52,210 nucleotides of DNA from Thermoanaerobaculia bacterium. GTDB lineage: Bacteria; Acidobacteriota; Thermoanaerobaculia; Multivoradales; JAHZIX01. The DNA lies in assembly GCA_027069135.1 (NCBI GenBank), contig JALXFE010000325.1:1-52210 (forward strand). Direction: 5' to 3'. Below, in pieces: positions 2,442-52,210 of this stretch; within the stretch, counting starts at the first letter, position 1, and each line of letters starts with the position of its first letter. A model generated the notes under the pieces. It was not told the DNA's origin and made no database searches. It was given only the letters and a program-made list of their open reading frames with translations. Made by a program: the position numbers and the translations under genes.

Positions 2442-3125
2442 TCAGTCCCTGTCCCGAATCCAGGACCGGGCCGCCAGTCGCAGGAGGCCTTCCCCTTCCA
2501 TCAGGGTATACCTTCCATGGTCGACCTTGAACCGTACTTCGAGATCAAGTTTCCACCGGTGCTTCTCGAGGTGTCTGCGTAGGTCCGGGCTGAGGTCCTC
2601 GGGTCGCCAGGACCAGGTCTCGACCAACACCCGACGGGGACTCAAGGGTCTACCGCTCCCTACCTCTACGGCACCGAGAGAAGGCGCAGGTCGGTAGCTC
2701 TGCTGGAACGAGGCGGGAGGCCCGAGCAGCAGGTAGGCCCGCCCACGGGACGTGAGGATTCCTCGTTGGCCTTCCCCGTCGAAGAGGGCGTCGGCCTCCG
2801 CGATACGCCGCTCGAAGGTCTCACGCCTTGGGTTTCCGGCCACTTCTGGATCAGGATCTCTTCGATTCCAGAAAGTGTCGAGAAAACGAGCCATTTCGCT
2901 GGAGGAGTCGAGGTTTTTCCAGCTGCGTAGCTCTACCGGCTCCATCAGCCAGTGTACCGGAACGCTACGCCAGTCCCCCCTTCTTTCCGAGGACCGTCCC
3001 TGGCCTGTGACGACGCCTGCCCAGAGAATGGACAGGCCTACGACGATGCCCGGTAGCTTAGCCGCCCGCGGTAGAAGTCGAGGCGCGCTTCGAGCGGTTC
3101 TCTTCGGCGGAATCTTCGTTGTCAA
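2442..3125 (-). CDS. GWxTD domain-containing secreted protein
   Basis: The core FLDTFWNRRDPDPE, then RRETFERRIAEAD and TSRGRAYLLLGPP, identifies the GWxTD domain, found mostly in Acidobacteriota, Gemmatimonadota and Bacteroidota. Its function is unknown. The family hallmark G-W-x-T-D is altered here (QRGILTSRG), so the Trp and Asp are not kept. The frame is open up to 3389, but that extension overlaps the DUF3467 gene and is Pro/Arg-rich. I therefore prefer the TTG at 3125, which places a basic plus hydrophobic segment (LPGIVVGLSILWAG) as an N-terminal signal or anchor. The protein is then 227 residues, shorter than many GWxTD proteins. The start is uncertain; the gene itself is well supported. 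Confidence 0.75.
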   Translation of the reverse strand: MTTKIPPKRTARSAPRLLPRAAKLPGIVVGLSILWAGVVTGQGRSSERRGDWRSVPVHWLMEPVELRSWKNLDSSSEMARFLDTFWNRRDPDPEVAGNPRRETFERRIAEADALFDGEGQRGILTSRGRAYLLLGPPASFQQSYRPAPSLGAVEVGSGRPLSPRRVLVETWSWRPEDLSPDLRRHLEKHRWKLDLEVRFKVDHGRYTLMEGEGLLRLAARSWIRDRD

Positions 3126-3258
3126 ACCTCGACAATTCCCGAATTGCCTGCGGCTCTTCGCCTCGATTCGCCTCGAAAACTCCTCGCACTCGCCAGCGCC
3201 TGATTTCTGCCACGGGCTGCTAGGGTGAAGTGTCGGCATTGGTGAATCGGGAGAGCGG

Positions 3259-12851: not shown

Positions 12852-12957
12852 TCGGTACCTCGAGAAAAGATAGATCCAACGGTTAAGGCCGAGGGATATC
12901 CCCGTAACGAACTGCTCGCAGTTTACCTCAAGATCGGGGGGAAGCGACCGGGCTTAT

Positions 12958-13121
12958 AGTGTCCTGTGCGGGAAATTCGCTCACATTCGAGGCCCGCTGC
13001 ATCCCGCTCTGCTGCGTTGCCCAAACTCGCCATAGCTCAAGGCTATGGCTGCGTTCGTGCGCCTTGCAGACCGGGCGCATCAGGCCTCTCGGTGTAGACC
13101 GAATTTCCCGCACAGAACACT
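12958..13121. repeat. MITE/REP-like hairpin element, copy A
   Basis: A 164-bp segment with 22-bp terminal inverted repeats matching at 21 of 22 positions (12958-12979 against 13100-13121; outer end AGTGTCC). The arms continue to pair imperfectly to a perfect 8-bp centre (GCCATAGC 13029-13036, GCTATGGC 13042-13049), so it is one long cruciform. No protein-coding signal is convincing. It fills most of the gap between pckA and the enoyl-CoA hydratase gene. A related element lies at 50847-51011. Confidence 0.8.
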
Positions 13122-13154
13122 GGATCCCCCGGCGAGGAAACTTGAGGCCCTCAT

Positions 13155-50846: not shown

Positions 50847-51011
50847 CTAGTGTCCCGAGTGACAAATTCATCGTATAAATACACGGCCCTTTCGGGCTCT
50901 AGCTGCGTTGTTCCTTCGCGCAAGAGCTCCGCTATTGCTTGTCGTCACGCCTTACCAGAGTCCCGGAATGCCTCGCGATTTCTCACGCGAATTAGCCAAT
51001 CGGGACACTAG
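50847..51011. repeat. MITE/REP-like hairpin element, copy B
   Basis: A 165-bp segment with perfect 12-bp terminal inverted repeats (CTAGTGTCCCGA 50847-50858, TCGGGACACTAG 51000-51011) and a paired centre (GCAA 50920-50923, TTGC 50935-50938). It shares outer AGTGTCC, length and the motif GCTGCGTTG at the same distance from the centre with copy A (12958-13121). Its right end contains the stop codon of the MMPL-like gene. Confidence 0.8.
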
Positions 51012-52210
51012 GAATGGTTGGGTAGTCTCGCTGCAGAACCGGTGCCAGGCGCGCCGAGGAAAGGTAGAGCGGTCAGGGCCCAGGTAGCGGCGGCGGCGGT
51101 GCCCAAGACGATGGCGATACCGAAATGCCGGGTCGGGGGGAAACTGGATAGGGCGAAGACGCCGAAACCGGTACCCACCACCAGGGCCGCCGTGAGGATG
51201 GGGGACTTGAGCTGGTACCGGGCCTGGGCCATGGCCTCGCGCGGATCCACACCGCTGCCGAGAAGCTTGCGCCGCCGGATCACCAGGTGGATCATCGAGT
51301 CGATTCCCAGCCCGAGGGCGACGTTGGCGGCCGGGGATGCGATGACGTCGAGGGGTAACCCCAGAAATCCGAAGGTGCCGAACATGAGAATCGGCAAAGC
51401 CACCACCCCAGCGACCATGACCGCGGCGACTCGTCCGCCGCGAGCTACCCACAGGGCGATGATCGTGAAGAGTAGCGTCAGGCCTCCCAGGCCGGTGAGC
51501 AGGCTCGAGGCCACCAGGCGACCCAATCGGCCCTGCAGGTCATAGAGCCCTCCGACCTGCTCGACCCGGAGCCCCTGGTCGGCCACGAGGCCCTGCAGGC
51601 GCTCCACCACGGCCTGCCGGGATTCGGAGCGTTCCCCTTCTCGCATGCGCAAGAAGAGCAGGGCCCGTTTTCGATCCTCGGTGATGAAGCTCCGGGCGAT
51701 CTTGTCGAAGACCGCTGAGTCCAGGAGTGCCAAGAGTTGATCGGCGCTCAAGAAGCCGGCGAGGGGCTGCCGCCGAGCCTCACCGAGGACGACCGTCAGG
51801 GAAAGGGCAGAGCCGACGGCGGGGTCCTCGTCCACGGCTGCTTGTACCGCTTGGAATCGCTCGAAAGCGTCTCCCCGGTGGAGGGGCTTACCGTCCGGGG
51901 AAGTCAGGACCATCGTCAGAGGGCTGCTTCCTCCGTCCCGATCGATGGCGGAAAGGCCCGCGAAGAGCTCGCCTCGGGAATCGAAGTACTCAAGCAGGCT
52001 CGGATCCGTGGTCAATCGCCCCAGGCCCGGGGCCGCCAGCAAGGTCGCGGCGATCACCAACACTGTGCCTCGTAGGAGACCGCTCCGAGACGCGGAGGGG
52101 GACGGAGCGGATGTCGGCTCCGACGCCGAGGACCCTTGGCCGGTGGGGCTACTTTCGAGGCGTAGAAAGAGGGGGAAGAGCAGGTAGGAGACGCCGAGGG
52201 CCACGGCGGT
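51008..52210 (-). CDS. MMPL/RND-superfamily exporter, C-terminal part, 5' end outside window
   Basis: At least 400 residues of the C-terminal half of an RND-type membrane protein. A first helix (LRGTVLVIAATLLAAPGLGR) leads to a periplasmic loop with LTTDPSLLEYFDSRGELFAG, then helices with VMVAGVVALPILMFGTFGFL, ASPAANVALGLGIDSMIHLV (the conserved GxxxD helix) and SPILTAALVVGTGFGVFALS. It resembles hopanoid/lipid exporters of the MMPL group, but the substrate cannot be told. Its stop TAG (51008-51010) lies inside the terminal repeat of hairpin copy B. The frame is open beyond the right edge. Confidence 0.85.
   Translation of the reverse strand, partial: TAVALGVSYLLFPLFLRLESSPTGQGSSASEPTSAPSPSASRSGLLRGTVLVIAATLLAAPGLGRLTTDPSLLEYFDSRGELFAGLSAIDRDGGSSPLTMVLTSPDGKPLHRGDAFERFQAVQAAVDEDPAVGSALSLTVVLGEARRQPLAGFLSADQLLALLDSAVFDKIARSFITEDRKRALLFLRMREGERSESRQAVVERLQGLVADQGLRVEQVGGLYDLQGRLGRLVASSLLTGLGGLTLLFTIIALWVARGGRVAAVMVAGVVALPILMFGTFGFLGLPLDVIASPAANVALGLGIDSMIHLVIRRRKLLGSGVDPREAMAQARYQLKSPILTAALVVGTGFGVFALSSFPPTRHFGIAIVLGTAAAATWALTALPFLGAPGTGSAARLPNHS

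Follow-up and report, generated by a model that had tools for sequence, protein, structure and literature searches.

A long intergenic hairpin of a Thermoanaerobaculia genome belongs to a remarkable superfamily of MITEs

Results

The window (the whole stretch of 52,210 nucleotides analysed here, from a Thermoanaerobaculia bacterium) contains at 12958-13121 a long hairpin, called A in the following, which lies between ORFs and has no coding capacity. As claimed in a preliminary description of this DNA, its terminal inverted repeats match at 21 of 22 bp, a perfect 8-bp stem (GCCATAGC / GCTATGGC) surrounds the exact midpoint, and the motif GCTGCGTTG occurs 28 bp off the centre. The predicted fold of the 164-nt strand reaches -91.3 kcal/mol, against -54.7 +/- 4.3 for shuffled sequences (z = -8.6; 0/200), and among the long inverted repeats ranked across the window A comes first and the element at 50847, called B, comes third. 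The 164-bp hairpin is real, but its boundaries move once a 4-bp target duplication is allowed for, the element proper being then 12960-13119. These elements, together with a degenerate copy of a further subfamily, C, give the following features:

3062..3219, minus strand: degenerate C-subfamily copy bearing the ends CCGCCCGCGG...CCACGGGCTG, with a core match of covariance model R1; flanked by TTAG (3058-3061) and CTAG (3220-3223)
12956..12959, no strand: left target duplication of A, decayed, ATAG, read directly
12960..13119, minus strand (which folds more stably): element A proper, TGTCC...GAACA, 160 bp long, with no fewer than 8 full copies in its own genome
13007..13074, plus strand: conserved core of A in model orientation (CGTTG...CGCCTTG), R1, 56.6 bits, A being one of the model's own sequences
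13120..13123, no strand: right target duplication of A, decayed, CTGG, read directly
50847..50850, no strand: left target duplication of B, CTAG, present as an empty CTAG site in uninterrupted C copies
50851..51007, minus strand: element B proper, TGTCCCG...CGGGACA, 157 bp long, of the sister subfamily, with at least 40 copies including partial ones
50898..50962, plus strand: conserved core of B in model orientation, R1, 50.4 bits, B being one of the model's own sequences
51008..51011, no strand: right target duplication of B, CTAG, which includes the stop codon of an MMPL-domain ORF (51008-52204)

Judging by other copies, the duplication around A was probably CTAG in its ancestral form. The consensus of A folds at -103.0 on the minus strand and at -86.0 on the other. 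The degenerate C copy, with flanks at 3058-3223, brings the superfamily members in the window to three and was absent from the preliminary description; R1 matches its core at 3109-3173 (24.3 bits, E 0.011).

A and the element at 50847-51011 had been presented as one family. They are indeed related, but represent sister subfamilies, and within each of them the respective copies are more than 90% identical. In the assembly of their own genome (7.17 Mb, 626 contigs), BLAST, with 40 candidates scored, retrieved at least 8 full-length copies of A at 96-99% identity, plus fragments, and at least 40 copies of B at 91-98%, some of which end at contig edges. Many contigs end inside B, probably because the repeat exceeds the assembly word. 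Subfamily C, with ends CAGCCCGTGG...CCACGGGCTG, is present in at least 40 copies of 93-100% identity and has a length of 164-165 bp, counting part of each target duplication. The genome holds roughly ninety or more related copies in total, and the hairpin is a recently mobile element. All three subfamilies measure about 164 bp and share a core of the form CGTTG...apical hairpin...CGCCTTG. The terminal repeats of A and B resemble those of C only weakly. On contig C42 (L077, around position 1778), an end TAGTGTCCCGTGAGGGGCGG that is unlike A or B abuts a C element, and may possibly belong to a further TGTCC-type subfamily.

Copies of B have CTAG on both flanks, with few exceptions. At six loci, B is inserted within C at one and the same CTAG, in both orientations, and other C copies are uninterrupted at that CTAG, so that empty and filled sites are both present. 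Moreover, A, B and C are found chained end to end with one CTAG in common, as are A and B on contigs C173 and C343. Since CTAG is palindromic, A and B alone cannot separate a duplication of TA from one of CTAG. We therefore turned to the flanks of 30 C copies, whose bases (outer-left, inner-left, inner-right, outer-right) read CGCG in 14, TGTG in 3, CACA in 3, TATA in 2, TGCG in 4 and otherwise in 4. In most of these copies the base outside one end equals the base inside the other (CTAG/TTAG/CTAA/TTAA pairs), which indicates a 4-bp YTAR duplication and hence a DDE transposase. Such a duplication is a hallmark of DDE enzymes; neither IS630, which duplicates TA, nor a HUH enzyme would be expected to leave it. 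A duplication of TA only, suggested by the symmetrical look of the strings, was rejected on this covariation. The mobility of the hairpin family is solid, and the near-identical copies, nested insertions with empty sites and 4-bp duplications bear out its earlier portrayal as high-copy, non-coding and non-autonomous.

The transposase had been supposed to be encoded elsewhere, and for C-type ends an autonomous insertion sequence with matching ends was found in a relative. The complete genome of this relative, which belongs to the same taxonomic order, has 137 C-type ends at no more than 1 mismatch, and contains two identical insertion sequences of 1,491 bp with C-type ends, flanked by target duplications CTAT/CTAT and CTAC/CTAC. 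These include a 465-aa open frame with DUF772 and DDE_Tnp_1 domains (PF05598, 8e-19; PF01609, 2e-8), which scores 175 bits with the NCBIfam IS1182 model, under its family cut-off of 270. Relatives of the same subfamily, about 50% identical, on alphaproteobacterial and Solidesulfovibrio plasmids have ends like CAGCSCGTTGACGAAGTCG, mostly with 4-bp duplications such as TTAG or CTAA. The assignment of the C-type partner to the IS1182/IS5-like transposases is well supported; the same type is likely for A and B, which may use a sister transposase. The conserved core was not found in the autonomous elements tested. A search for an autonomous element with the TGTCC ends of A and B was negative in their own genome, where exact B ends are paired or at contig edges among the matches listed, and equally so in 0.93 Mb of a second genome of TGTCC type (about 17% of it). 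An end-spacing pattern with CGAANTT, which was too strict, gave no match, and neither did a Pseudomonas copy against plasmids.

Several other transposases were considered and rejected. IS630 (PF13358) is represented by one remnant in the own genome and by none in a second genome, G012, and the duplication is of 4 bp instead of the 2-bp TA. DDE_Tnp_1 has 5 matches in the own genome and none in G012. IS701 (DDE_5) is absent from 17 of 20 element-bearing genomes, and its copy in the own genome has other ends; an IS701-family insertion sequence on contig C53 of the own genome (L288:965-2434) has CTAG flanks, a 443-aa transposase and ends TACTACTGTGTCAT. The IS1182 copy of the own genome differs in its ends (GAGCCTGTCGCAGA). 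An IS1182-family insertion sequence of 1,716 bp, with a CTAG duplication and ends GAGCCTGTCGCAGATAG, lies on contig C559 of the own genome (L107:1276-2991).

We scanned GTDB genomes with the pattern TAGTGTCC...(G/C)GCGTTG...GGACACTA, permitting 130-190 bp, and obtained at least 118 stretches. The matches listed include, under the names given in their records, Acidobacteria, Proteobacteria, 'Deltaproteobacteria', Actinobacteria, Planctomycetota, Verrucomicrobia, Gemmatimonadetes, Krumholzibacteria, Eisenbacteria and Binatia. Despite the permitted range, 114 of 119 elements from many phyla are 162-168 bp long, and the downstream CGCCTTG, although outside the search pattern, is nearly always there. 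Within the own phylum, R1, a covariance model of the core only, matches at least 46 of 199 genomes, with 26 candidates scored in each, and the elements retrieved by the core alone again mostly measure about 164 bp and carry ends of several kinds. At least eight phyla contain elements with this size and core. Genome G215 (L324-L328) holds several copies of a longer derivative, of about 245-249 bp, that has C-type ends and keeps one half of the core, with extra sequence inserted.

Of the 32 consensus pairs in the full alignment, 20 have changed on both sides while remaining paired. Covariation of the terminal arms is expected anyway, as one transposase must bind both ends, so that structural selection is argued only by the inner pairs and by strand bias. 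Three inner variable pairs covary with z = 8.0-10.7 against a permutation that ignores relatedness. Concerning strand bias, mismatches at variable pairs on the CGTTG-first strand are A.C in 87 cases vs G.T in 22, A.C corresponding to G.U/G.T on the complement; counted per sequence, the bias is 37 vs 3 (p = 2e-8). It is seen in most groups with data and fails in a small Acidobacteria set of terminal arms. The complement of the CGTTG-first strand gives the better fold in 98% of sequences, an inherited asymmetry of the core counting as a single event, and the same strand folds better in all 14 elements of an independent survey set. Private mutations within A, B and C, a small control in which the three families are pooled, stand at 27 vs 20. 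This ratio is distinct from 87:22 (Fisher p = 0.006), which makes a simple mutation bias unlikely. With G.U-type mismatches concentrated on one strand, the fold of that strand appears to be selected, unlike what would be expected of a decayed insertion sequence remnant. To judge from reading the alignment, GACGACGA faces GAGGAGGA in many cores on the favoured strand, an arrangement that might allow tandem sheared G.A pairs.

Discussion

These data indicate that hairpin A, ordinary as a copy, is part of a MITE superfamily that is remarkable as a whole. Our preferred reading, to which we assign a probability of roughly 0.75, is that the superfamily is mobilised in trans by a DDE transposase of IS1182/IS5-like type, and that its folded core aids propagation. 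The IS1182/IS5-like (DUF772) enzyme, supplied by an autonomous insertion sequence with matching ends, would excise or copy the element via its terminal repeats and then join it into YTAR, mostly CTAG. The core would be retained since the folded single strand, either ssDNA or RNA, aids the propagation of the element and not the host, possibly because the transposase acts on it more readily or because it persists through replication in hairpin form. Against this reading speak the negative searches described above for an autonomous element with TGTCC-type ends and the weak resemblance between the terminal repeats of A/B and those of C. A more ambitious version of this reading, which we regard as tentative and put at somewhat less than even odds, is that of an ancient selfish element, spread over at least eight phyla, whose strand-specific folded core would parasitise several IS1182/IS5-like transposases, swapping terminal repeats while core and size stay constant.

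The strongest competitor, which we nevertheless find unlikely, is that these are ordinary MITEs, derived independently by internal deletion from IS1182/IS5-like insertion sequences and palindromic by chance, with the core being a functionless shared remnant. Terminal repeats, 4-bp duplication and copy numbers are all typical of MITEs, and Methanosarcina acetivorans is reported to contain MITEs of IS1182 type that measure 160 and 169 bp and have repeats of 25-26 bp (PMC3852290). However, a remnant of this kind is hard to reconcile with a core missing from the autonomous elements tested, with the narrow length of 114 out of 119 elements across many phyla, with one core lying under different terminal repeats, and with inner covariation and strand bias above neutral expectation.

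Less probable still is a host-serving RNA, such as a terminator or mRNA stabiliser, that would have spread by transposition and been kept for its transcript. The tolerance of G.U in the fold of one strand would fit such a role, as would the moderate excess of elements at the 3' ends of genes and between genes that converge (26 of 68, with crude ORF calling). However, with the same crude calling the elements showed no preferred orientation with respect to co-directional neighbouring genes (16 vs 13, p = 0.71), which argues against a cis-acting transcript role and for one in the element's own propagation. The distribution is moreover patchy within the phylum (at least 46 of 199 genomes), and Rfam gave nothing above threshold at the elements, nor any credible match even at E up to 1. 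About half of the genes that end beside an element have as their stop codon the TAG at that end of the element (119 GTDB elements, L110-L227), indicating that insertion into CTAG often sets or reuses a stop.

REPs are tagged by GTAG/CGTC, and no covarying 4-bp duplication is expected of them. The preliminary description had suggested looking for a RAYT with matching ends, but movement of single-stranded hairpins beside a tetranucleotide by a HUH (Y1) transposase is very improbable: despite the strand-biased hairpin, the Y1_Tnp matches (17 in the own genome and 9 in G012) and one C copy that begins at the stop codon of a RAYT-like gene, the flank bases covary as a 4-bp target duplication that single-strand insertion would not give, elements do not generally flank RAYT-like genes in the own genome and G012 (L083-L104), and the insertion sequence with matching C-type ends codes for a DDE enzyme. 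Two core-like matches near Y1 genes were unsupported on inspection.

Among the closest known systems are the ISMac2-related, IS1182-associated MITEs of M. acetivorans (PMC3852290), which resemble the present family in size, terminal repeats, moderate copy number and IS1182-type partner, as well as in the 4-bp duplication of the 160-bp form. They differ in being reported from one archaeon, and no shared core, cross-phylum spread or strand-biased structure has been described for them, a distinction drawn from their published description. MITEPsy1 of Pseudomonas syringae (100 bp, CTAG/YTAA 4-bp duplication, ISPsy2/IS5-like; PMC3189936) is likewise non-autonomous, duplicates a 4-bp CTAG or YTAA target and probably uses an IS5-type transposase, but is shorter, has other ends (GGAAGGTCTG) and a narrower host range, with no such core reported. 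The IS1182 family is the transposase family nearest to the autonomous partner of C; its member IS1272 replaces a stem-loop and leaves no duplication (PMC5678879), unlike the present elements with their clear 4-bp duplications. REPs are short, 20-40 bp (PMC3733652), and REP/REPIN systems with RAYT share with the present family high-copy intergenic hairpins of strand-specific structure. A literature search, which missed most subscription papers, found no description of this cross-phylum family.

The usual view of MITEs is that they derive by deletion from a single insertion sequence within one lineage and do not last long. In contrast, we observe here one core and one length that last across phyla and despite differing terminal repeats, accompanied by compensatory changes and by a strand bias of wobble type. 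The conservation of the core across phyla and the strand-biased structure lie beyond what could be seen from the window alone, and the family looks like an old parasite of transposases, not a random remnant. If this is true, a folded nucleic acid would be part of how a DDE-mobilised element survives, and the family would account for a share of the long intergenic palindromes in some genomes.
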